Positions 2 to 32,967 of a DNA stretch of 64,000 nucleotides are shown here, in pieces (position 1 is the stretch's first letter; each line of letters starts with the position of its first letter). The stretch comes from Paramacrobiotus metropolitanus (taxonomy: Eukaryota > Tardigrada > Eutardigrada > Parachela > Macrobiotidae): NCBI RefSeq assembly GCF_019649055.1, contig NW_026570224.1, positions 2,480,001 through 2,544,000 on the forward strand. The letters are read 5' to 3'. A program made the position numbers and the translations under genes. The notes below the pieces were generated by a model that was not told the DNA's origin, did no database searches, and saw nothing but the letters and a program-made list of their open reading frames with translations.

Positions 2-3000
2 GCCGTAGCGCTGTACAGTTTGACTAACAGTTCTGACGGCATGTTTGTCATCGAAGAAACTACGGGAATCATCACACTTAATCGCGACAACGACCGGGAT
101 GCCGGGACGGAGATTCCGCTGGAAATCGTGGTGCGGGATGGAGCCTGGCAGTCGAAGTCTTTAGTTATGGTGACAGTGCTACCGGACAGCAATGACCAGC
201 CGGCGTTTGAGGAAGTCCAATACATTTTCTACGCGAATAGAAGCACTGACGTCGGAGCAATTGGCATGGTGTCGGTTGTTAAAAAGAACCTCGAAACAGC
301 TGCAGTTACGTATTCCCTGAAGTACCCAAGTGTTTTCTTCGCTGTTGATCGTGTGAGCGGCCAAATCAGCGTCAAGCATTCGCTGCAGTTTGCGCCGAAA
401 AGTCATCGACTGATTATCAGAGCTGCACGAAATAATCCTGGAGGCAAGAAAGGAGAAGTAGAAGTGCTGGTTACTGTTCTTTCAGGAGATCTCGTATCGA
501 TGCCGCAGTTCACCAGATCCAACTACCTTGTTGAAGTAGCCGGCAATTCCAGCAATGCGCTAGCTCAAATAGATCTCAAAACAGGGAACTCCAGTGAAAA
601 TGGACCGAGGTTTTCCATTTCCCATTCCAAAGTAAGTGTTAAGTGGAAGAAATATTCAATAAGTTAGGCTCTCTGAATTTCGCTTACACACAACATTGGT
701 TGGGTCGAATGCTTATTCAGTAATCGTTTACTGTCTTTACAGGAAATTTCGAAAGATTGTTTTGGTGTCAACACTACAACTGGGACCGTGCATGCAAAAA
801 CGAAAAGTTTCTGTCTACCTGGCGATTACAACCTGACTGTCGATGCTTTCTATACCGATGCCCACTCCAGCAACAGCGCCGTCTTGACCTTACGCATCTT
901 GCCAGCCAACCAAAACGCCTTTATACCACGCTTTCCTGCCGAACATTACGAAATCAGTGTTTCGGAAAGCACACCCATCGGAAGTCTGTTGTTTACGCTG
1001 CCAGTCGACATTAAAGATTCTCCTCCGCACAAAGATCAAGTGCGATATTTGCTGGACGACGCCGCAAATGTCTTCCAGATCGAAACGACAACTGGTTCGG
1101 TATATTTGCGAAAGCAGCTGGACTTCGAAGAGAAACAACAGTACATGTTAATCATTACTGCATCGGATTACGGGGTCAACACACCTTCCGCGACAACGTC
1201 GATGTTGGTATCTGTTGTTAACGAAAATGATAATCCGCCTCAGTTTGCAAAAACATCGTATTCCGTTATTATTCTGGAGACCGAGCAAACCAACCAACAT
1301 ATCGGCCAGGTTATCGCTGCAGATCCAGACGATGCAAATCAGCACATTTATTACACCATTGAACCAGATAGTTCATATTTTGTCATCGATTCCCTTAAAG
1401 GAACGATCACCAACATTCAGGCACTGGATTACGAAGCCCATGCAAACCATACCTTGGTCATTCGAGCCACCGATCCTACAGACCCTTCACTGTACTCCGA
1501 AGTCAACTTTCTCATCAATATAGCAGAGAGAAACGAATATGCGCCGCAGTGTTTAGCCGGTGTCTCCCGGTTTACCGTTTCCGCCAAAGCGCCGGTGGGC
1601 AGTCGGATCGGCCGGGTCATGGGTGCCGATAATGATAAAGGCGTTGCAGGAATGCTGGGATACGCATTGGTCGGACAGTCTAACAGTTTTGAGATCGACA
1701 ATAAAACGGGTGAACTGATTCTCGTCGGTGATTTGGGTGGCTTTGTGTCCAATGAAGTGATTATGCACGTTCTGCTGTCCAACTCGGCATTCCCACCGGC
1801 TGTTGGCGTGGTGTGCGATGTGTTTGTCCATGTGGTGGACGGGAACAACATGCCGTACTTCATGCAGCGCGAATACATGGTGCGGGTGAGAGAGGACGCA
1901 CAAATCGGGTCGACCGTTATCAAAGTGCAAGGTCGAATCGAAGGTGACCGGCGTCTGCAGTATATGTTAGTGGCCGGCGACGAGCACGGACGTTTTGCCG
2001 TGGATGGCCGCAGCGGAAAAATTACCGTTGCGCGGCCGCTGGATCGAGAGGCCAATAGTCAGTACTCGCTGCGAATTCTGGCTAGAGTTTCCGACGAATT
2101 TCAATGGAGTGCCACGGCGTTGGTAAACGTGACAGTTGACGATGTCAACGGTAAGCAGCCGCCTTCTTCCTGTTTGCATATGAACAGTGTAAAATAATGT
2201 CGTTTTCCGCAGATAACGCGCCATACTTCGATCCCGTCCCAGTGGGCCATATCCGCGAAAACTCCCACCCGGGAGCAACTATCCTAAAGCTGGCTGCTCG
2301 GGACGATGACTTGGGTCCGCATATCTTCTCATACCGGATGGTTGCATCCCGGTGGAGCAGCTATTTTAAACTGAATCCTACAAATGGTGTTTTAACGACT
2401 CTGCAGTCATTTGATCGAGAAAAGGATGCGGAGGTCGTGTTGAATATTTCTGTCAGCGATGGAGGCAGCCCACCGCGAACATCGTTCATACCGGTGAAAA
2501 TCTTAGTTGACGACGTCAACGATAGCCCTAGCATGGAACGGCCGTTGACCATCGTCGTCTATTCCGATGTGGAGCAGAGCAATTCGGCAACGTATCGTAA
2601 ACTTGGCAATGTGAGACCCCTTGATGCCGACTCCACAGGTAAAACGACTATTTCCTAAATTTATAACCTTAGTAAACGAAAAGGTAAAACAGAACACAAA
2701 GTAACTTTTTATTCCATGTGTTTCCGGGAAAAATTAAAGGATACTGTTACACAGTATGCTAGTTAGGTGCCTGTTATTCCGTTTGCTAATGGATGATGTC
2801 TTGTGGTCTTTGTAATATACGCACCTAATTATCGCCGTTTTATGTTGAACTTCCAAATTGCGATTCGTCGATTATAAAAATCAACTAGAATTGTCACTGT
2901 ATTCTAAGATATTCTGTGTTATTCTAGGCGAATATCAATGTAAAATTGTGGGTGAAGAAGGCTTTTTTGAAATCGTCGATGGCTGCGATCTTAGAGCTAA

Positions 3001-5373
3001 CCGTTTACAAATCGGCAACATCTACCGCCTGGACATCAGCGCCTATGACGGGAAACATCCACCGGTACAGTACGAAGTTATCGTGAAATACGAGGCTGTC
3101 AAGTCATCTTTCCTGGATCACAGCATCGCCCTTCGGTTAACCGGCATTACTTGTCCAGTTTTTTGGAGAATCATTACCTTCGGCTAATGCAGTCTTTGTA
3201 TTCAACCTTGGGAAACATTGGACAAGGAGTAATTTTTGGCTTAACCGATCTCGATGGCAGTTGTGTTCTGCAGTTAATCGTTCATACTACGAAATCCTCA
3301 GAATTTCTGGATAAAACGCCCCTTATCAATATGTTGACGACAAACCTTACCGAGATCCAGAAACAGGCGGGTATCACAATTGGCAGCGTGGATTACAAAC
3401 CTTGCGAAGCGGACAAGTCAGTGTGCAGTGCGACGACAGCGTGCCGTGATATAATTCAAGTGATACCTCACCAGAACAGCATTATCAGCAGCTCCAACCT
3501 GATAATTTCATCACTGCATTTCGAATATTCCCACCACTGTGCCTGCAGACATCCTTACAGTGGGCCCAAATGTGAACTGCAGTGTGCCGCGGATTTCTGC
3601 CAGAACGGCGGCTCCTGTGACAAAACCGGCAAATGCGAATGCCCACCGGGGTTCTTTGGCTCGCAGTGCCAGTTCGATCTGGATGAATGCAATTTGTGGG
3701 GTGTCACGCCGAGCTGCCTGAATGGCGGACGTTGTGTGAATACTTTTGGTTCCTTCCGTTGTGATTGTCCCCTCGGGTACGCGGGGCGGCAGTGTGAGGA
3801 GGTCGATGATTGTGTCAGCTCGGGTCAACCGTGCGTACGCCCACAGAACGGTATTTTTGGATTTGGACCCGAATCGTCTGCCGAAATATCGGCTTCGCTA
3901 AAGACAACCATGAATGAGATCAGTGTCATTGTGTCTACGGTGAATCGAGATGGAGTACTATTTTTTGCACAACGACAAACGGCCACCGGGAAACCGTCGC
4001 ATTTCATCGCATTAGATGTTAAAAACGGAAGAGTGCATTTTGCGTTCGGGTCGACCGCCCGAGACACCACTAGAATGACTGTTCATCGATTTGTTAGCGA
4101 TGGCCGATGGTATAAAATTGTTGCCGTCAAGGAAGACTTGGTAAGTTAATTCGGCATTACGAAGTAAATGCATTAATAACGCATTGCACTAATAATGTGA
4201 AAGTGCATAGTGAATCAGTGATACACTTTTTTATCGGAATTTTCAAATTTGCAGATCGGAAGTTTAACGGTCACGGAATGCGACGAACTGTCCTGCGCTA
4301 CCTGCTCGCCGGGTGACGACACTTGTTCTACAGTTGTAGTTGGTGTAGTGCGGAAACAAAATTTCTTGGATGCTTCTCTGCATGTCGGAAAAATCCCAAA
4401 CACAATCTCGATTGACCAAAATCGGCTAGGATCCCGACATTTTGTGGGTTGCATTCGTAACCTCTCGCTGAATCAAATACCAGTTATGTCCAAGGATCTC
4501 CATAATTCTGTTGGCATATCCGAAAACCAATGTTTAGCCGCCACGGATAGCTGCCAGTTTGCGTCCTGCGCTTCAAACGAGATCTGTGTTAGCTTATTCG
4601 ACGGTCAGTTCCAATGCGTGACGAGTGAACAGCGTGAGTCCACTGCCACAACAGTGATAGTTATGGCAGTGTTGTTGCCGATCGCCGCTGTCGTTCTCGG
4701 ACTGGTGGCATTTTACCACTTCCGCTACCGGAGTAATAAACTACCGCTATCAAAATCCAAAAGATCGACTAACCTCGATTCTCGTCCGCCGTTCCTGTCG
4801 CCAGTCGGCCTCTTGGAAGCCGGCTACGCCTCAGGATCGTACCAGTCGCGTACTCTGCGACCACCTGGTTTGTACCACAGCCAACACGACGGCAGCATGT
4901 ACAAAAGCGATCTGTGCATGTATCATGCCATGCAGCGATCCAGTCCACATTTTTACTGTGTCCTTCCGGAGAGACCCACATCGTATTATGCAACAGGGGA
5001 TGCAGCCGTGCGCTACAGTCATCACGCGTACGTTAACGATGCTAACTTGTCAAGCTGCACCCGGCATCGAAATACGTTGATATCACCAGCTTCAGCCATT
5101 TCGGAAGAACCCACCTCCTCATGTTCGACGCAACCGGTTGATATTCTGAGTCTGGACTCGATGGAAGAAAGGAAAGCAATGAAACTGAGCAACCAGTTGG
5201 ATGACGATGTATGCAGTGACTGTGAAAACTGCAAAGCGCTGAGCGCCCAGACGGTGGACTGGTCAAGAATACACGCCGATGACCCTGCACGATATTATGA
5301 TGATCAGCCAACCTACGCCGAAGTGAACGATTTTGTGGAAAAGGCCACCGTTTTACGACAGGCACTGGTGTAA
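2..5373 (+). CDS. Fat-like cadherin, 3' part (N-terminus outside window)
   Basis: Single-pass adhesion receptor of the Fat/Fat-like group, which acts in planar polarity and tissue organisation at the cell surface. Exons read: 2-631, 743-2150, 2213-2638, 2928-4140 and 4255-5373, about 1,598 residues. Visible in order: eight or nine cadherin repeats with calcium-binding linkers such as NENDNPPQF and DDVNDNAPYF; a pre-EGF region; an EGF repeat; a calcium-binding EGF (DLDECN); a laminin-G domain split by the intron at 4141-4254; another EGF-like module; a membrane segment around 4653-4725 (VIVMAVLLPIAAVVLGLVAF); and a cytoplasmic tail of about 210 residues. The frame is open at the left edge, so the gene starts upstream. 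One frame jump near 3150 interrupts an otherwise conserved segment (see findings). Dachsous-type cadherins are less likely because they lack EGF and laminin-G domains. Fat versus Fat-like was not resolved. Confidence 0.88.
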
Positions 5374-6147: not shown

Positions 6148-6958
6148 TTACAGACGCTTAAGCTGGTTCTTTGGTGCCGAATAACCCAACTGCAGTTCGG
6201 GGAATTCCAGCGGCACTTCAGTTAACTCTTCCCGAATCCAGGCCATATCGAGAGGCAAGGGAACGCCCATCCATACTGCACGGGTAGTGTGGTCTAGCAA
6301 TTCCATCTTGGTGAGAGGATGGATCAGCACCGTCAAATTTCCACGATTCAGAGCGTAGAAATTATAGGCTTTCTGGAAGGATTCTCTAGGCACCCAGGCG
6401 TAGAAATTGCCAATCATGTGGGGTCCGCGTGGACCGTAGGCCAGGGTGCCGGCACGGGCGGCCAGTTGACCGGACCGGATGCTGGCACTGACGCGGGCAT
6501 GGAAGGCTTCGGCTTCGCGACGGCTGTCAGCATTCGTCTGGACGAAGTAGGTGTGGAAGTGGTACTCTTGGACCAAATCATCCAGCCCAAACTCATCAGC
6601 ACTGGCGACTACAAGTGCAATCAATTTACTTTTTAAAATGCGCTTCATCAGGGAAGTTGTTACTGTATACAGTAATATGTTAGTATGTTATTTTCATTTG
6701 CATTCTTAATACAAACAATAACGGCAGTAATACAATATACACGTATATATTGTATTACTGCCGTTATTGTTTGTATTAAGAATGCAAATGAAAAATAACA
6801 TACTAATGTACTTGAACTGGATTCCGTTACAGTAATTATTTTAGCTGTTTGTTATAAGGATAGTTTTACGTACCAGGCACAGATTTGAAAGAAAACCCGT
6901 GATCATGCGCCGTTATGCAGCCGAACAAAGAAACAACTGCAATTACTGCCAGCATCAT
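6148..6958 (-). CDS. Secreted DOPA 4,5-dioxygenase-like protein (copy A)
   Basis: Predicted extradiol dioxygenase of the small DOPA dioxygenase family (bacterial/fungal DodA type), which opens the catechol ring of L-DOPA to 4,5-seco-DOPA, the precursor of betalamic acid. Two exons on the minus strand: 6958-6874 and 6608-6148, giving 181 residues. Exon 1 encodes a signal peptide (MMLAVIAVVSLFGCITA, then HDHG). The phase-1 splice restores Val29, and the whole enzyme domain lies in exon 2. Family hallmarks: HFHTYF (His45, His47), GPHMIGNF (His92), a VLIHP block (His125) and DHTTRAVWMG (His135) followed by PLPLD. Copy B lies 1.2 kb upstream on the same strand. An alternative ATG at 6648 would give a 166-residue form without this leader. 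Family and splice are well supported; substrate is inferred from the family. The enzyme domain is probably of bacterial or fungal origin. Confidence 0.85.
6681..6805. repeat. Near-perfect inverted repeat (foldback) in the dioxygenase A intron
   Basis: Two arms of 59 and 60 bases (6681-6739 and 6746-6805) are reverse complements, differing by one T in a T-run, around a 6-base centre. The element lies wholly inside the 265-bp intron (6609-6873). The flanks share a 4-base ATGT (6677-6680 and 6806-6809), possibly a target-site duplication. Transcribed, it would form a hairpin of about 59 bp. It could be a foldback MITE or a small hairpin-RNA source; neither can be decided here. Confidence 0.92.
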
Positions 6959-7101
6959 TGTGGATACGGTGGATTAGGGTAAGGGAATTAAGAATAAGTG
7001 AACAAGCGTAAATGCGCGACAAAAATACTGCTTATAGAAGGGCACTTTTGTCGTGTAAAGCGGTGGATTGGAACTGAATACATTTTGCAATTCACACGCT
7101 G

Positions 7102-7110
7102 TTTATATAT
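7102..7110 (-). promoter_or_regulatory. Possible TATA box of dioxygenase A
   Basis: Read on the minus strand this is an ATATATAAA-like run about 145 bases upstream of the copy A start codon. Position suits a TATA element with a 5' UTR of roughly 110 bases. Motif-level evidence only. Confidence 0.25.
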
Positions 7111-7905
7111 GATGACTGCGATTGTTTCGTGGTTAATTAATAGCATAACTTAAAATAAGTCGCATAAGAGTGACAGTTGAATGGTACTAAAGTAAGTATT
7201 GTGCGTACTATCTTGATTAGATAAAAACACGAGACCCGGCTCTAGTGAGAGATACGAATCGGTAAATAGAAGTGCTAGCTTCAATCATAAGATCTACAAT
7301 TATTTTGCGTCATATACGTTTCAAGTCTGGATCGGCTCGCGACGGAAAATTCCTGGAACAAAGACTGCTTACTAACTGCAGTGCTGGACATTCGACGCAC
7401 GCCGGAATGATTAACCCAGTAGGCGTTGCCTGGATGTAGGTAATGCATGCTGCAGTGTAAAATTTGGGTCATTGCCACTTTCCTCTCTAATCGGAGGTGT
7501 AAAGGTCACTGCATACAACTTGTTCGCGCAGCCTTGGCTAACAATAATAAGCAAAAAAGCTGGAGTCTTTGAAATTGTCTTCGGCCAGCCAGCTAAGTGC
7601 GGTGTGCAGTAAATACGTAAATACGTACGCACATAGCTATAGGGCGCCACGGAATACACGGGAAGAATGTGGAATGCGGCGATATCACGTGCAATTTTTA
7701 AATGACCACTGGTCAAGGTAAGTGGGTTGCTGTATACAGTCATGGGAGGCAATTTTAAAACTTGTCCGATATGCATGCAATCTGTTACTTAATGCACTGC
7801 AAGCTTGAATCTAACAGTTGCGTTGTAGTGATCGTACGTTGATAGTTTGTTCAAAATACATATTTCGTCGGTTTCGCGTAGGAAGGAAATTGTCAACTAA
7901 AAGCA

Positions 7906-7916
7906 TTTATTTTATT
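7906..7916 (-). promoter_or_regulatory. Candidate poly(A) signals of dioxygenase B
   Basis: Two overlapping minus-strand AATAAA hexamers lie about 240 bases past the copy B stop codon. Plausible cleavage signals by motif and distance. Confidence 0.4.
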
Positions 7917-8155
7917 GCAACTCACGATCGCTACACTTAATTGCAGCTTACAGAAATTTACTTCGCCTTATGTTACAAAGAAATGCCGATATCGGTAGTG
8001 TAGGACAGTTAAATCTGTTTAACATACTTTGTACTTTTCCTAACTAAGAACACAGACGAAAATATCAAACGAAAAATTATCTGCAACACTGGGAAACATA
8101 AAATCAATGATTTCACAAAAGTGGCTACAACATAAAAAAATTTCCAGCACAAAAA

Positions 8156-8599
8156 TTATTGTTTCGGCACGCTAGAGTATCCTAGCTGCAGCTCCGGATA
8201 TTCGAATGGCGTTTCCATCAGTTCAGCTTTTAACCAGACCATATCCAACGGCAGCGGCGTACTTCCCATCCATACCGCGCGTTCTGTGTGATCCTTGACT
8301 TCCAGTTTTGTCAGTGGATGTACCAGTACAATCAAGTTGCCACGATTTAATAAGTAAAAATTATACGCCTTCTGGAAGGATTCTACCGGTACCCAGCAAT
8401 AGAAATTGCCGATCATATGTGGTCCGCGTGGTCCATAATTAATCGTGCCGCATCGTGCAACGAATACACCCGATTCAATGGCTGCTCTCACTTTGCTGTG
8501 GAAGACTTCCGCTTCGCTTGTGCTGTCCTTGTTGGTATGGAGGAAATAAGTGTGAAAATGAAATTCTTTGATTTCGTCCGTATCGAAACTGCTCGCCAT
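8156..8599 (-). CDS. Cytosolic DOPA 4,5-dioxygenase-like protein (copy B)
   Basis: Paralogue of copy A, 147 residues in one uninterrupted reading frame. It keeps the same blocks: FHFHTYF (His14, His16), GPRGPHMIGNF, NRGNLIVLVHPLTK and DHTERAVWMG followed by LPLD. Most metal-ligand candidate histidines match copy A position for position. No signal peptide is visible: the protein begins MASSFDTDE, so it should be cytosolic. The start is the first in-frame ATG before the conserved domain and gives the usual short length of this family. An upstream leader exon cannot be fully excluded, but I saw none comparable to copy A. Same strand and 1.2 kb spacing indicate tandem duplication. Substrate is inferred from the family. 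Confidence 0.85.
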   Translation of the reverse strand: MASSFDTDEIKEFHFHTYFLHTNKDSTSEAEVFHSKVRAAIESGVFVARCGTINYGPRGPHMIGNFYCWVPVESFQKAYNFYLLNRGNLIVLVHPLTKLEVKDHTERAVWMGSTPLPLDMVWLKAELMETPFEYPELQLGYSSVPKQ

Positions 8600-11085: not shown

Positions 11086-14000
11086 ATGTCGCAGAATCCA
11101 GGCGATCCGTTTCGCCAGCGTGGTCCATTTCGACCACGCGTCCAGAGCAATCTCGCATCGTTTCCCTCCAGCAATATCAGTATTCCCACGGGCGCGCGTC
11201 CCCCGTACCGTCCGCCGCCCGGATCAGCGCGCGGACCCGGTCCAGGGTATGGACCGCAGGTGGGACTGTCAGGTCCCCGCATCCTTCAGGGGGATTCCAG
11301 CAGTTTCAGCGCGGCCCACGCCGTCCATTCGGCGGAATTAATATGGGCATGCGGATGCCACCACGTGGTCCTGGTTTTGACGGCGGAATGGGTCATGAGG
11401 GTGCGGGGCAGCATCCGAATGGAGGAGCTGGTGCGAGATTCCCACCGACACGTCCCTATCAACGAGGCGGTCCCATACAGAATCTCGCTCCTGTCGGACC
11501 CACACGGGGACGGGGGAAACGCACGCCGCAGTCTCGACCGGTCGATGAAGAAGATATTCTAACCGTCCGACCATTGTAAGCATGGGGAAAATCGTATGTT
11601 GACGGTGCATTTAAATATAATTTAATGAACGAATATTTTGTGCTTCATTTTCGACATTTATCTTTTATGATTTGTATTTTATCAATAGTTTATCAGATAA
11701 ATAAATTATAAATGTAAGGAAAACGCCGGCGTAGTACGATTATTGAGCTTCTCTTCTCCGCATCGACGTTTTTAAAACCATGTTCATTGTTTTTTCAATT
11801 TTGTTCAGAGGCGCTGGACAAGAAGTTGGTCGTTCGTGTATCTTATTGGAATTCAAAGGCAAGCGAATATTACTGGACATGGGAATACATCCAGCTTTTC
11901 ATGGACATGCTTCGCTGCCTTATTTGGATCATATCAATGTGGAAGATATCGAGCTGCTCCTTATTACTCAGTACGTGCAGAATTGTGACTAATTTTCGGG
12001 TTTGCAGCTTCGCCCAATGCATATTCGCTATTGTGTCCAGTGCCGCTGTGCATGCCTGGTGGCGTATCGTAAGATTGAATTTTTTCCAGTTTTCACTTGG
12101 ATCACTGCGGAGCGCTGCCTTATTTTCTTATGAAAACGAAATTCAAAGGACGAACGTTCATGACGCATGCCACAAAAGCTATCTATCGACTGACTTTAAC
12201 CGATGGACTGCGAGTCAGTCAGGGACAAGAACAGCTCTTCACGGAGGCCGATCTCGATAAAAGTATGGACAAAATCGAAACCGTGGATTTTCATGAGGTA
12301 AAATCAATAGTTGTGCAGAAATATAAGTTAGCTTCGGCTATTATTGGATTTAATTAATTACAGGAAAAAGAAATTAACGGAATTCGATTTTGGTGTTACA
12401 CTGCTGGTCATGTTCTGGGCGCTGCTATGTTTATGATTGAAATTGCCGGCGTCAGGGTAAGAGGATCTTTCGGTATTACGAATGCGAAAAGCAGAGGATA
12501 ATATTGACCAATGTTTTACCTATATAGGTGCTGTATACCGGAGACTTTTCACAAGAGGAAGATCGGCATCTTTGCGCGGCGGAAATTCCCACGATGAGGG
12601 CTGATGTGTGTATTATGGTAAGTAGGGGCTTTTTCGAGTTCTATACTCGTTGGCAGTTGCTAAAATCGGGAAATATGGAAATTTAACAATTTAGCTTACA
12701 TAGTTTATTTCTCATACTTTGACTATTTTCCTTAATCAAACTAAGAAAATATTCAGGAATCTACGTACGGAATCCATGTGCACGAGGATAGAGAAACTCG
12801 AGAACATAGATTTCTTAGTCAAGTGCGGACCATCCTTATGCGTGGCGGGAAATGTCTTATACCTTCTTTCGCACTTGGACGAGCCCAGGAAATCCAGCTC
12901 ATTCTCGGTACGTACAAACGTTTGCGGCACTTCTGTAAATATCTGATTTACATGCACGATTATTAAATTCTGGAAGCAGCTGGCTGTTGGAGTACAATGA
13001 TTCGTTTTGCATTTTAACCAGATGAATACTGGGATTTACATCCAGAAATGCAGGATTACCCTATATATTATGCGTCCGCTTTGGCGAAGAAGTGTATGAC
13101 TGTTTACCAAACATATACGGGTGCAATGAACGACCGTATCAAGAAGAAGCTTTCTGTGCACAATCCATTTAATTTTAAATTCATCCAGCCTGTCAGGGTA
13201 TGGCAATGAAGATGAGGTTAGTGGTTGTTACTGTGTACCATGATTTTTGTTTGTAGGGTCGCGAAGATTTTGATGACAAGGAACCTTGTGTGGTGATTGC
13301 AAGTCCCGGTATGATGCAAAGTGGACTGTCGAGAGAACTGTTCGAATTGTGGTGCGGTGATTCCAAAAATGGTTGTATTATTGCTGGCTACGTTGTCGAG
13401 GGCACTTTAGGCAAAGTAAGAACATCTCGTAAATTGTTTAAAAAATGGAATATAAGCTATAAAGCGTAAATATAACGATGGAGCGTAACGAATTTTTTAT
13501 TTTTTTATTTTACTTTTGGTTTTGCTGTTTTCAGCAAATTTTGAGCGAGCCAAAAGAAATCAAAACATTGGCCGGACAGACGATTCCGATGCGCATGTCA
13601 GTGAACTATGTATCGTTTTCGGCACATACCGACTTTCAGCAAACCAAGGCATTTGTGGAAGCATTGAAGCCTCCTCATATTGTAAGTTGGCTAAGTAAAT
13701 CGTCAGTTTCGCCAACCTCACAGTCTTACGTTTGTTAAGATTTGTTTGTTAAGATTTGTTTGTTGCGTTTTTTGAGTACGTCAAATTCGGTTTTCATGAT
13801 GTGTTATGCTCGTAGATTCTTGTTCACGGTGAGCAAGCTGAAATGAACCGTTTGAAAATGGGATTGACACGAGACTTCGAGAACACGGACTATAAGTTTC
13901 AGCTGCATACTCCAGCTAATACGCGCAGTGTTCAGTTGAATTTTAAAGGAGAGAAAACTGTGAAGGTACTGATGGCTATGTTCTTTATGTAAACCAGATA

Positions 14001-15903: not shown

Positions 15904-16957
15904 ATGGAAAGCCGGAAGAATCCGGAAACGTCCATGAATCAGTTAGGCGGATTGTATCTGAACGGAAAACCGCTACCGGTGGAAATACGACAGCAGATTC
16001 TGTTCTTGTCGGTTTGTGGACTGCGCCCTTGCGACATCTCGAGACAGTTACTGGTATCCCACGGCTGCGTCAGCAAAATTTTGACCAAGTAAGGTTTATT
16101 AAAATTTATACAGCTGATTTTGATACCATTTCACTCGTGTGATACCTGTAGTCCCTATTTCTCAATGTCAGCCTTACTAATTTTTTAAAATTTCATTAGG
16201 TTTAATGGCTGTGTCAACCAATGAAATTGCTAATTTAAAGTGCTTGATTATGAGTTATAGCCTTGGAGTATTTTGTGTGCCGATTGCGCAATTCAGTAAT
16301 TATGTTAAACATTTATATATTGAAAGTTTGCACTTTTTGCCCTAAATTTAAGCACTATGAAGGATCGGTAAATAGATAGTGCTTGTACTTGTGAGTTCTA
16401 TTGTAAATGGTGGAAACATTCGGCGTTGTTGTACGAGTACGTATTGAGAATTTTGAAAGGTCGTTAAGTTGGAAATGTTAAATTTCGGCATTATGCACCT
16501 ATCTTGGGTGTTGCGTAATGGTTTTAATTACCTCAAGAACCGATTTTCCTCAACAGATAATGTTGGAATGACTTTAAATGGTGTCTTTAATAGGTATCTT
16601 GAAACTGGTACAATCCTACCAGGTTGTATTGGTGGATCGAAGCCGAGAGTGACCACCCCGTACATTGTGTCCAAAATCGTCGACTACAAGCGAAAACATC
16701 AAACGCTTTTTGCATGGGAGATTCGTGAGAAGTTGTATTACGATGGCATTTGTCCCAAAGATTCCCTGCCTAGTGTCAGCTCCATTAACAGAATTTTGCG
16801 AAAAGCGCAGAAAAAAATGAAGTCAAGCGGTGTTGGGGAAGGCGAGAAGGTAGTCGAATCCGTAGTGTGCGGAAAACTGGATGCACATAAACAAACAGGC
16901 GTAGGGGAAGGCAGCGCGAAGAGGAAGGGCTTCTTGATTAAAGATCTGCTAGAATAA
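15904..16957 (+). CDS. Paired-domain-only Pax-type transcription factor
   Basis: DNA-binding developmental regulator with a nearly complete paired domain. Exons 15904-16088 and 16594-16957 join in frame through AA|G, giving 182 residues. The PAI half ([33 protein letters not shown]) lies in exon 1. The linker and RED half ([32 protein letters not shown]) lie in exon 2. The protein begins about nine residues before NQLGG. The 55-residue tail carries two GVGEG repeats, a basic KRK and the terminal motif FLIKDLLE, which resembles the eh1/octapeptide Groucho-binding motif. The stop follows at once, and no homeodomain was seen in the next 2.5 kb. This resembles the Pax1/9-Pox meso class, which also lacks a homeodomain, but the orthology group is not settled. 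Start chosen as the first in-frame ATG before the domain. Confidence 0.88.
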
Positions 16958-27089: not shown

Positions 27090-30000
27090 ATGGCACCGGT
27101 TCGCAATGACGAACCTGCAGTTCTTGAAGTCGGCCAAGAAGTTAGCGCAAAATTTAACGGTGCTTTCTGTGAGGCCAAAATTCGAGCTGTAAGTCACTTG
27201 GATGTTCGCGTGAAAGTGCGGGATTCTGCATCTGGTGAAACGTACACTGTGAAGCATTCCGATGTCCGCTCAGAACTCAAAGATGTCAGAATACAAAACA
27301 CTGCCACAGTGAAACCGCCATCGTCTAACGAATCTGTTGTCGTTAACGTTCTTCAGGTGAGCGCATTTATTTAGAGCATGGTACTTAATTTCAAGTGATA
27401 AATTTATTTTCAGCTTTTTCATATGTGATTCTTAAGATATCTGTTCCAGCCTGCTTATTGTATCATTTTATTATTGTTATTGCGCCATGTGTTTTAGGTA
27501 TTAGACTACAGCCAGTACGAAGTCGAATTTAACGACGGAGATAAGAAGAATCTGAGAAGAACGTCGTTGCATCCGAAGAGTGGGAAGCATTTTGACGAAA
27601 GCACATCCTTGGATAATATGCCATTAACGCAGCCAGAAAAAGCTTCTGCTGCACAGACTGCTAAAGAAGGCTCCGTGGCCAGCAGTGCCAGGTCGAAACG
27701 GCGGAACAGTCCTTCGGGCAGCGAGGCCTCCGACGAATCGGAAAGCGAATCCGTTCGTCGATCCACACGATCTCGTAGGACGACGGTGGTGGGCTCGAGA
27801 CCTGTTGGACGACCGAAACGAGAAAAACAGGAAGGCGAACCTGAATCATTGCAGACTGAAAAAGGTTAGAGATAACATAATTGCTAGGTTTCCTGGATCG
27901 AATATTGAATTTCATAATACATTTCTACGATTATGTTTAGTGAACGGTGCAATTCTGGTTTTCATAATATATTGAAATTTACATCTAGCAAGAATTTTGG
28001 CAATAGTCTGTCGTATCTTTTGCCGGTGTACCGATGCGCCTTGTTTCTTTATATACATTTTCCTTGGTTTTAAATTTTCTCTTTAGTTGCTTTTAAACTT
28101 CAATGATTTCCGTTAGACTCGCCAGAAGACTCACCTAAGAAAGGCCGACCGCCTCGGAAGCCGGTTGCATCTGATAAACCATCTTCCTCAGCACAAGTTA
28201 CCAATCCACCGCCAGTTGTTCCCGAAGTGCGCACTGAACGGCGACAATCGAAGCCAACCATTAAAGAAGAGCCACACTCGTCGCCATCGCGTTCTCCACC
28301 TCGGAAGCGCGTTCCAGTTGTAGAAGCCAAGGTGGAACCAGCAGAAAAGGCGACCGCACAGGTTAAGGAGGCTACGGTAAAGTCCGCAGTAAGCGCCAAG
28401 AACAAGGAAGGTGAGCGTGATGAGAAGGATGCATCGACTGCTCGAAGCCAGAGAGAGAAAAGAGGAAGAGAAGAAAGCCGAGAGGCTGTTTCTCCTCCTA
28501 AGAAGGTCACCCCAAACATTCCTGGCAGCAGCAGCGCTGTTGAGCCGCGCAAAACAGAGGCTGTTCCCAAGCAGGAACCGGGCCTAGATGCGGACTATCC
28601 GCTGAAGTCTATTGTTTGTGTTCCACAAAACGGACGGAAAAAGTTTAAATGGCTCCCGGGATTGGTAGTCCATCCAGAATGTCGCAAGAAGGGTGGAAGA
28701 CTTGATACATCGAAGGAACTGCTTGTTCGTCTTTTTAGCAGTGGGAATTTTGTCAAGGTTAGTTGGTGCATGATTACGGTGTCGCTTTAAAAATCTGGTA
28801 TTATTTGGTGTTTCTCAAAATTGCTTTTTGTATTTAGGTGCTAAAAAGTCAGGTTAAACCATTTTCGGAAAGCTTATATAGCGAACCAGAGGAAGATCGG
28901 ATCCAGACATTTAACCCGGATTACGCTTTATTGTATTTTCGGGATCAGAGCCTTCCTCCCACTTGGCAGCCCACGCTGTTTGTGCCGTTTGACCAACATG
29001 AAGGCACAGACGAAGGTGACGATGGAGAGGACTCTGGAGGGAGGGATGACCCCGATGACGAATCGGAAGCCAACCGTTTTATGATACAGTTCATTAAATA
29101 TCGCGACGAAAGCGGACATCCGTACGACGGGGAGCCGACCGTTCTCGGCAAAACTGTGGATATGTACAAATTGTATCGCGAGGTGCACCACGTTGGTGGC
29201 TTTAATCGCTGTACTCAAGAGAGCAAATGGCCAGAGATCTGCGGAGCGTTGAGTATCTCCAGAGACGGAGCGGACTCGTTAAAAAACATTTACCAAACGT
29301 GAGTTACGTTGAAAAACTGTTATCTTATTTTGTTAACTAGTGACCCCTATTTAGAAGCTCTTTCGCACTACTTATAACGTTTTTTCCCCTCGAAATACAA
29401 CCCCGACCAAAACCTATACGAAAAGATAATGCTCCGGCTCACTGATTGGTAAATTTCGATACCACGCTTAAGTTGCCTGGACGAAAGCTGGTACCATAAT
29501 CAGTTTGACCCTGCCATTTTAGTCGCAGTGTTTTTCGGGGACAGAAGAAATTGTTTGAAGAATGCTTTTTTTATTGTGTTAACGCTTTTCTTATAACTAT
29601 TTATAGGCATTTCCATGGAGGATTCGAGACCTTCTTTCGCACTTTGGCATCCAGTATCAGTGATATACGGCTAGGGAGAAAAAGACACCAGTATACGAGT
29701 CAAGAAGTGCATCCCACAGAACCCGTTCGTCCAAAGCCAGCCGAACCAGCGTTACCTAGTAGCCCACAACCTGCACCACAACCGGTGAAGCGTCCACCTC
29801 CTGGCAGACCAAGAGGACGTCCTCCGGGTAGTACAAAAACCGAAAAGGCGCCTTCCAAGGAAAAGTCAACGGAACCCATTCGGGATGAACCCAAAATGCC
29901 GTCTACTTCCCAGCCGGTTGTTAAAAATGAAAAACCTGATGATGTTAAACCTGCTACGGCAGATACGCCACAAACGACGACCGCGAAAAGTAAAGTGGCA

Positions 30001-32967
30001 CCCCCGGGCCCGGAAACGTATGTAATCCGCGATTTGTTTTGCATTTCCGGCATGATTGCTCTTGCTTTGTGTGATTTGAAGTGTTTTGGCAGACTTGATT
30101 TGTCAAAGCTGCGATCGGGAGCGGTGGTTGAAGTTTTATACCACAATAAGAAAACCAAGAAGGTGTTGGCGTACAACGCAAGGATTTTGGATAATGTCGG
30201 CGATATTGCCTATTACGTGCATTATGCTCATTGGAATAAACGGTGAGCGGCTTAATTTAAGCCCCTCATTTCAGTGAGCCTTTGAATTAATTCAGTTTGA
30301 ACGTTTCTGTAATTAGAAACAAATTTTAAGAACGATATTCATATTCGCTGTGGTGCAGTGTTTGGCGTTTCTTTTGAATGGAATCCATTTAGAGAGTTTC
30401 TGTCATTTAAGCGGTTTGTTGAAGCTGGATGTTGTCGCATGCAGGCGCACAAGGGTTTTGTAACTTGTTTCGTTTGAACGTGACTCGCTTTGCTATTTAA
30501 TAGCATTACTGCCTTTTCTACGCTCTTTCCAGGAAATATATATCGGTTTCTTGCAGGTATGACGAATGGATACCACTTAAAGCTGTTATCAAAATTGTCG
30601 ATACCTCGGAAATTGGTTTCAAGCAGTATGTTTTTAATCCTTCCATGCAAGTCAGGAATAGAAATAAACTGAAAGGACCGGAATGGAATAAATGGCGACA
30701 AGCGTTGGACGCTGCCTTGGGTGAGACCAGCCCCAGTCCCCAGCAGACTATCAGTACAGATCAAAGTTCCACAAAGAGCGGTAGCGAAGTACGCGAGGAT
30801 GCTGGTTCACGACCGGAGCCTAAACCACGCGTTTCGCAGAAAAGGTCTGCCTCAAAAACTGATGAAGAGCGGACAAAGAGTGAGAGTGATTCGAAACAGG
30901 AGCGTGAACCGAAGGTTATTAAACTGGACAAGGCGGCTTCGCCGGGTGTCTCAAAGCCAGTTAAGGTTGTTGTCGAACCGGAAAAAACGGTAAAGGAAAT
31001 TGCAGAGAAAGGAAAAGGTGCGGAGACTGTTACCGTTGTGACAGCGGAGCCGGTATCTGAACCAAAACCGGTCGGAGAAAGCGTTCAAAAGCGCAAGGTT
31101 GTTGCCGTGGACAAATCTTCTGATCCTAGTCGTCACGGGAAAAAGGAAGTGAAGCCGGTGGCGGAAAGTGTTCCTGCAGCACCTTCCGTAGTACCACCCG
31201 AGCCGCAAAGCATAGTTCAGCTGCAGAAAACTGACAAGGGAGTCGAGGAAAAAGAAAAGGAAGTCCAGAAAAACGTAGCAGGTAGGGGTCAGGAAGTACC
31301 GTGTATTATTCATAATGGTTTTTAACGCCGAAAACACATTTACATTTATTGGGGATTTATGTGAACGCTTTTTGTATGAGCAGCCGCGAAAACGATTCCA
31401 AAAATTGCTGATTCATCGGCGCTACCCTCGAACCAGGCGTCTGAAGTGGAAAAGAGTCCTGCTCCAGTAACCCCAGCTAAAAGAGGCCGCCCGAGTAACA
31501 AGTCGAAGCAGTTAAAACTGGAGCAAGAAAAGAAGTCTAAGGAACTCGTTGCACAACCCACTGTGGAACCTGTGACAAAACCTGCGGATGTCCCATTGGA
31601 AAAACTTCCGGAACCTCAGCCCACTGCCTCAGCGCCGGCAGACGCGGAAACTCCTCGAAAGCGCGGTAGATCGAAAAAAGTTTCTGAAATTGATCATGAG
31701 AAAGATGTGGCCGTAGAACCCACCTCGAATCAGCCGGTTTTGCCCACTGCGCCGCTGCAACCACCATCTGCGAAGGTGCAGTTTGCCGACAATTTGCAGT
31801 TGTTAGCTGCCGTTGCGGTTCCTGCCATTGTGGTGGATACGGTAACGGAGCAGAAAGAAGAGAAAAGCAGTACTGGTGCTGCGACGAAGGAAAAGAAACC
31901 TTCCGCCAGAAAGCGCAAAGTGCCTGTGGAAATTTCTAAAGATATTTTGTTATCCGCGCCAGCTTTTGCAGCAAAACACCGGGCCGCTTTAGGTATGAAG
32001 ATTTTCTTTTTCAGTCGCATTGAGCGCTTTCTTTGTAACTTTTTTTTTCTTTGTAGCTTTTACCTGTCTAATTGGTGTAAAATGCATATAAATTGAATGT
32101 AAAACAAAAATATTCATCACGAAATTGAATACTTACACTTACAGTTTACCGTAGCTAGCATAGGATGCCGAGGTAAGGATAACGATAAGTACTTACAGGT
32201 TGTATGTACGTACTCAAGCCTGTACTGTTGATATACATTATGGCGGGAAAAACGTAATTGTTTTCTGTACCGTAGAACATAACGTTTTTGTCAGTTTTAA
32301 AGCGATGTACATGCTATACATACTTCTTCTTAAAATAAATTTTCCGTTTTTTCAGAGCGATTAAAGCTTCCGCTGGATGGGTCAGAGGGATCCGGTGAGA
32401 CGGTCTTCGAAGAAGATGAATGCGGAAATTCTGACTGATGGAAATCATCAAAGTAGTGATGTAAAACTACCTACGTATATGAACGCATCAACTGAAAGCA
32501 GTGAGATGAATCATGAATATGTACGTAATAGGAGGATAGGGCCAGGGGCGTTAACCGGCAGTATTGGGGACCTAATTATAAGATACTAATTATATCACTG
32601 AAGTTTCCAGTTCAGGTTTGTAAGTACAAGTGCGAGAAACGTCCATCCGCATCTAGGCGCTTAATTAGTACAATTCTTGAAATTATTCTGATGATGATTC
32701 TGTACCGTACTAGCTAGTACTATAATATTGTACTGACATTGCGCGTTTAGAATTATTTACATGCGCGCAAGTTGGCTATATTTGGGCGCAGGCTATGGAC
32801 TGCAGGACGTTGGATGAATTGGTTTTTAAATATTAATCTTGTTTCTAGGTTCGGGCTCGAAATCTCCTGAGCCGGATGCGGTGAAAGCTGAGGAAGAAGC
32901 AGCTGGCAGCGGATCCGGTGCCACAACCAGTACGACACGACCGAAGTCGGCCCGGACGAAATCTTAA
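27090..32967 (+). CDS. ARID4: ARID4-type chromatin protein (RBP1 family)
   Basis: Nuclear chromatin reader/DNA-binding protein; in vertebrates ARID4A/B bind Rb and SIN3-HDAC. Exons: 27090-27356, 27498-27864, 28117-28757, 28838-29298, 29607-30017, 30093-30242, 30557-31281, 31384-31992, 32356-32394 and 32849-32967; 1,262 residues. Order: N-terminal Tudor-type domain ([20 protein letters not shown]-like [12 protein letters not shown]); RBB1NT/PWWP-like segment ([13 protein letters not shown]); ARID ([19 protein letters not shown] through FFRTLASSI); chromo-barrel ([28 protein letters not shown]); then a long Lys/Glu/Pro-rich disordered half. AT-hook-like GRP motifs recur ([25 protein letters not shown]). 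The 75-bp intron 30018-30092 has no stop, so its retention would also be in frame. No LxCxE Rb-binding motif was noticed. Reading through the 32394 donor would give an alternative C-terminus ending at 32438. Confidence 0.92.

Follow-up and report, generated by a model that had tools for sequence, protein, structure and literature searches.

An old tandem pair of DOPA dioxygenase genes in the macrobiotoid tardigrade Paramacrobiotus metropolitanus, with probably divided targeting

Two genes that resemble DOPA dioxygenases lie next to each other in the genome of the tardigrade Paramacrobiotus metropolitanus. This raises the questions of whether both encode such enzymes, what these could do in an animal, and from which source the genes came. 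We analysed the surrounding window, that is, the whole 64-kb stretch of DNA at 2.48-2.54 Mb on contig C4. The genes, here called A and B, are both on the minus strand and sit between a Fat-like cadherin gene and a CPSF3-like gene (Table 1).

Further along the window, we observed two other regions with domain matches on the plus strand. In the open frame at 16457-16957, the match to the PAX paired box is confined to its second half (positions 52-125 of the 125-position profile, E 9.2e-29); the frame may represent a single PAX exon or half a paired box. At 28107-30246, adjacent frames match the RBB1NT and Tudor-knot domains, and we take them to resemble an ARID4-type chromatin protein.

Table 1. 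Features of the DOPA dioxygenase locus and its neighbours (positions within the window).
Feature	Position	Strand	Evidence
Left neighbour, Fat-like cadherin exons	677..5373	+	Cadherin, FAT4-type, EGF and Laminin-G domains (Pfam) in frames 677-2197 and 3049-4149; frame 4222-5373, which has no Pfam match, assigned by eye
Exon 2 of gene A, with the PF08883 domain, a C-terminal extension and the stop codon	6148..6608	-	PF08883, 98.1 bits
Gene A intron, 265 bp; donor CTG/GTACGT, acceptor TTGTAG/TC	6609..6873	-	Direct sequence reading
Adjacent inverted repeat within gene A intron; arms of 52 nt each, 98% complementary and not separated by a spacer	6691..6794	.	Self-comparison
Exon 1 of gene A, with the start codon and a likely signal peptide (MMLAVIAVVSLFGCITA/HDHG...)	6874..6958	-	Hydropathy, donor, control windows
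Gene B, one exon; PF08883 DOPA dioxygenase lacking a signal peptide	8156..8599	-	PF08883, 91.2 bits; AlphaFold2 mean pLDDT 87.1
Right neighbour, CPSF3-like exons	12079..13738	+	RMMBL domain at 13463-13738; CPSF73-like peptides and the CPSF3-like name by eye, the 12079-12357 peptide having no Pfam match

Genes A and B belong to the PF08883 (DOPA 4,5-dioxygenase) family. Both score well above the cut-off of 25 bits, and a profile search of the 169.8-Mb assembly (169,799,020 bases on 533 contigs) returned exactly two matches, both at this locus (two candidates, two scored). The same search of a control set of 14 genomes gave a single match, which fell under the cut-off. An earlier note on this DNA had described two open reading frames of the DOPA dioxygenase family, with conserved histidine blocks, as tandem duplicates flanked by animal genes for a Fat-like cadherin and CPSF3. 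We confirm each part of this description: the proteins of A and B are 67% identical, the genes are neighbours and the sole PF08883 matches of the assembly, and the genes on either side are animal. The count of two copies is likewise true for this assembly.

Other searches of the same assembly recovered gene sets known from this species. We found seven trehalose-synthase matches on three contigs (G000:C67:338225-341317, C84:82535-84453 and C208:25210-26681), which is consistent with the three TPS-TPP genes described for P. metropolitanus (PMC8277472). Of the five matches from a DM-domain search, two lie on contig C5 (2.135 and 2.163 Mb); for P. metropolitanus, two DMRT genes near each other on scaffold 5 are described, in a region drawn at 1.96-2.37 Mb (PMC11191345).

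The products of A and B are each predicted to fold into a small dioxygenase domain. Their AlphaFold2 models (mean pLDDT 84.9 for A; Table 1 for B) are confident in the core but poor in the final 18-19 residues. The model of B, on which the structural comparison was made, matches the solved putative dioxygenases PDB 2peb, 2p8i and 2nyh with TM scores (by target) of 0.90-0.93 and a best E value of 2.3e-10. Furthermore, five histidines of B (H14, H16, H61, H94 and H104) show no variation across the 31 aligned rows, which comprise A, B and 29 of 84 bacterial loci. Gene A carries counterparts of these five histidines, and the motifs are HxH, GPH, HP and DH. The 29 bacterial loci are those of alignment A3, from which L018 (stop) and L033 were left out; alignment A4 also omits L074 and L077.

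The two genes differ in structure and probably in the targeting of their products. Gene B reads as a single coding exon of 147 amino acids. Its N-terminus reads MASSFDTDE and has no hydrophobic stretch, and its product is probably kept inside cells. A signal exon for gene B was considered and rejected, as the donor scores of the upstream candidates reach at most 3.3, compared with 5.3 for gene A.

Gene A extends beyond its core reading frame, with a likely 5' exon on the far side of the intron. The predicted spliced product has 181 amino acids; among the eight in-frame splice combinations listed, this one was picked for its donor. Exon 1 likely encodes a signal peptide, with a peak hydropathy of 3.03 and a small residue at the candidate cleavage site, the call relying on simple rules for hydropathy and donor quality instead of a trained predictor. 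None of 17,968 control windows (overlapping, non-independent, drawn from both strands of this 64-kb window, with no acceptor demanded) equals exon 1 in both the hydrophobicity of the start and the quality of a donor in the same phase, and 127 of them pass under looser limits. An unspliced alternative start at 6648 reads MKRILKSKLIALVVASA, which is also signal-like but less hydrophobic (2.16 versus 3.03). Thus, both models of gene A suggest export, and from the sequence of exon 1 we predict that its product is probably exported.

The intron of gene A contains a near-perfect palindrome. It is a head-to-head structure of 104 bp, and a longer, imperfect form at 6680-6806 matches its own inverse at 97%. 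The near-perfect arms suggest that the palindrome is of recent origin, perhaps as a foldback insertion. It was also considered as a member of a repeat family, and this was rejected because the assembly holds no second copy at the sensitivity of the search.

The duplication that produced A and B is old. The two copies differ with a dN of 0.277, and their identity at codon positions 1, 2 and 3 is 73, 78 and 40%, which together indicate this age. At the DNA level, the two gene regions share only one significant match, a 307-bp stretch of the coding core (E 5e-29). Neither NG86 nor YN00 returned a dS value for the pair, which we read as saturation. Because of this, the case for purifying selection is built on the codon-position identities, and these point to such selection on both copies.

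This animal can probably make L-DOPA, judging by the presence of a TH-like gene. Aromatic amino acid hydroxylases occur at four loci in the assembly: an exon on contig C300 fits TH best (E 7.8e-26, versus 1.1e-17 to PAH), for the exons on C57 and C18 the best fit is PAH, and the fourth locus is on C40. Searches of the assembly for tyrosinase and hemocyanin-type phenoloxidase gave no matches; these searches had no positive control, and the control genomes also gave none.

Betalain-type chemistry is plausible in this animal. The DODA of G. diazotrophicus, which is 46% identical to 2NYH, is described as forming betalamic acid and muscaflavin (PMC6426604, PMC12186922). Human cells with Amanita DODA and L-DOPA are described as producing yellow betaxanthin, and human TH can provide the L-DOPA (PMC7337513). 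It is the products of these two enzymes, taken together with the TH-like gene, that make the chemistry plausible here.

We lean towards a reading in which A and B are two tandem extradiol DOPA dioxygenases of the PF08883 type, B cytosolic and A secretory, that open the ring of L-DOPA toward betaxanthins. A TH-like enzyme would supply the L-DOPA. Both dioxygenases would then open its ring, or perhaps that of another catechol, in an O2-dependent step that yields seco-DOPA; this would close spontaneously to betalamic acid, and perhaps also to muscaflavin. Condensation of betalamic acid with amines would give betaxanthin-type antioxidants. B would carry out its step in the cytosol, and A in the secretory pathway or extracellularly. 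Substrate, product, secretion and physiological role are all parts of this reading that we infer. If exported, A would depend on a supply of L-DOPA outside the cell, for which the searches described above, lacking a positive control, found no enzyme.

A different role would be a catechol cleavage that breaks down or detoxifies compounds from the diet or the cuticle, with no part in betalain formation. Neither the profile nor the fold fixes the substrate of A and B, and an exported copy would suit extracellular substrates. Furthermore, transfer-candidate clusters described for Hypsibius dujardini and Ramazzottius varieornatus include tandem intradiol ring-cleavage dioxygenases (PMC5531438). Cleavage of aromatic rings is thus already known in tardigrades. 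However, the PF08883-type enzymes with a described activity act on L-DOPA (PMC6426604, PMC7337513), and reviews (including PMC13389832) report betalain synthesis for a tardigrade gene named DODA1. We regard a purely catabolic role as possible, but on balance unlikely, and retain ring opening of L-DOPA as the preferred reading.

The bacterial relatives of A and B are distant. A pattern-limited scan of genome contigs gave at least 594 pattern matches and 558 confirmed relatives, of which the best 80 were kept; with four from plasmid records, these make up 84 bacterial loci (L005-L088). Motifs were counted in 83 of them, as L048 matched none, and the first open reading frame was taken where a locus gave several. 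The relatives are 26-40% identical to A and B, 40% being the best value among the matches listed, and six plasmid records show 29-34% identity. The spacer from the HxHxY motif to the GPH motif is 40 residues long in both A and B, compared with 32-34 in the 83 bacterial loci. None of these 83 homologues (80 of the 84 loci being the best of 558) has the tardigrade spacer length, and none has the LGYS tail.

Wider scans also returned no close relative. With the conserved peptides of the tardigrade pair alone, genome contigs gave 137 pattern matches and no confirmed relative, and two conserved-peptide scans of viral contigs gave 109 and 58 pattern matches, again with none confirmed. The A+B profile matched 61 times among Pseudomonadota (61 of 398 genomes) and 24 times among Cyanobacteriota (23 of 386 genomes). 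No match out of these 85 passes position 133 of the 154-position profile (784 bacterial genomes, two phyla), and there is no close donor among these Pseudomonadota and Cyanobacteriota genomes.

No tree built here puts A and B inside bacteria with support, and none points to a donor. In an unrooted tree of 119 columns with long branches, A and B branch together outside the 83 sampled bacteria, their stem being 4.8 changes per column long. All comparisons with the sequence that we take to be the Amanita muscaria DOPA dioxygenase (P87064) are leads only. This sequence shows 41% identity over 136 amino acids, has a similar spacer and carries a C-terminal YPxLxLGYSS. When included as a row, it joins A and B at 99/93, a value from 119 columns with an unsettled bootstrap and a long-branch warning. 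We infer that A and B descend from a eukaryote-type (fungus-like) source and not from a recent bacterial one.

A eukaryote-type origin could also mean that no horizontal acquisition by tardigrades took place, and that A and B represent an old eukaryotic gene passed on by vertical descent and lost in many animals. The position of the pair outside all sampled bacteria and its very long stem would fit this history, as would the layout common to the pair and the presumed Amanita sequence. Transcripts with PF08883 are also described from two longidorid nematodes, although the same source lists these genes themselves as transfer candidates (PMC5664137). A review likewise calls tardigrade DODA1 putatively transferred (PMC13389832). 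We consider unbroken vertical descent a tenable history, yet one that we doubt.

A recent transfer from a bacterium is highly improbable. When the fungal row is removed, the pair joins one burkholderial sequence, with a support of 28 (quick method); the collections searched comprise bacteria and archaea, so only bacterial neighbours were possible. Against such a transfer stand the low best identity among the matches listed, the spacer and tail that set the pair apart from the counted loci, and the point at which every match to the A+B profile ends. A bacterial source, one of the options left by the earlier note, is not supported, the spacer length and the C-terminal motif of the tardigrade pair being found in none of the 83 bacterial homologues. 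The view of that note that contamination is unlikely does hold: we consider contamination or a chimeric assembly an almost negligible explanation, as A and B have animal genes on both sides and are over 2.4 Mb from the start of a long contig, a likely intron and signal exon are present in gene A, and the GC3 of gene B (0.51) resembles that of two cadherin exons (0.52 and 0.53), with gene A higher at 0.62.

A fungus-like source is the origin that we prefer, and it can be combined with the predicted targeting into a broader, more speculative picture. Macrobiotids would have a two-compartment DOPA dioxygenase system of fungus-like origin, in which one enzyme works in the cytosol and a second, exported copy makes betalain-type antioxidants in the body fluid, the cuticle or the egg coat. 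Such a system would go back either to an acquisition of its own or to an old radiation of the gene within tardigrades. We put this forward as a rather improbable extension of the preferred reading. The new detail here is that a macrobiotoid tardigrade has two DOPA dioxygenases in tandem that arose by an old duplication, with targeting that is probably divided. Two paralogues kept for a long time, one of them probably exported, allow a test of whether betalain chemistry is general to tardigrades, and of where in the body it takes place. The pair also lets a fungal and a bacterial origin of the genes be tested against each other.

Li et al. 2024 is reportedly the source study of Hypsibius henanensis DODA1. 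Among the titles listed on DODA in tardigrades or Paramacrobiotus, a scope that leaves Li et al. 2024 and supplements outside, none concerns this tandem pair. The words 'DOPA' and 'dioxygenase' are absent from the main text of two P. metropolitanus papers. Among the papers listed on PF08883, longidorid nematodes are the only animals, and none of those listed under soil-animal terms contains 'DOPA dioxygenase'.

The name 'DODA' covers two protein families in print, the small PF08883 type and the LigB type (PMC12186922). Both candidate families are present in this genome. A LigB-type (PF02900) gene at G000:C14:312123-312767 (locus L003, 1333-2238 on the plus strand) scores 33 bits, over the cut-off, and has an apparent signal peptide; its best match among solved chains is 5hee (E 1.8e-12). 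It is the only LigB-type match over the cut-off in the assembly, a second, weak match of 14.8 bits being on contig C83. This C14 gene could be confused with tardigrade DODA1.

Comparison with known systems places the pair among the PF08883-type enzymes. Bacterial PF08883 dioxygenases (G. diazotrophicus DODA; PDB 2nyh/2p8i and 2peb) share with A and B the same predicted fold and the HxH, GPH, HP and DH motifs. They differ in being mostly 110-125 amino acids long, as well as in the identity, spacer and tail described above. The presumed Amanita muscaria enzyme is unlike A and B in being fungal and longer at both ends. LigB-type DOPA dioxygenases, such as plant DODA and E. coli YgiD, belong to another protein family and are about twice the size of A and B, although the reaction reported for them is the same as for the PF08883 type (including PMC12186922). 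NiDODA of Neolecta (33 kDa) is grouped here with the LigB type by size alone.

The closest parallel in name is found within tardigrades. A 2026 review describes DODA1 in several parachelan clades as putatively horizontally transferred (PMC13389832), and betalain-forming enzyme activity in an animal is described for one tardigrade species (PMC13263728). Like A and B, the DODA1 of H. henanensis comes from a tardigrade and is named as a DOPA dioxygenase; it is called putatively transferred and is linked to betalains (PMC13389832, PMC13263728, PMC12669191). Compared by description only, A and B differ from it in forming two tandem copies, one of which has a likely signal peptide. Thus, genes named DODA1 are already known in tardigrades, and the present pair adds useful detail rather than a new type.
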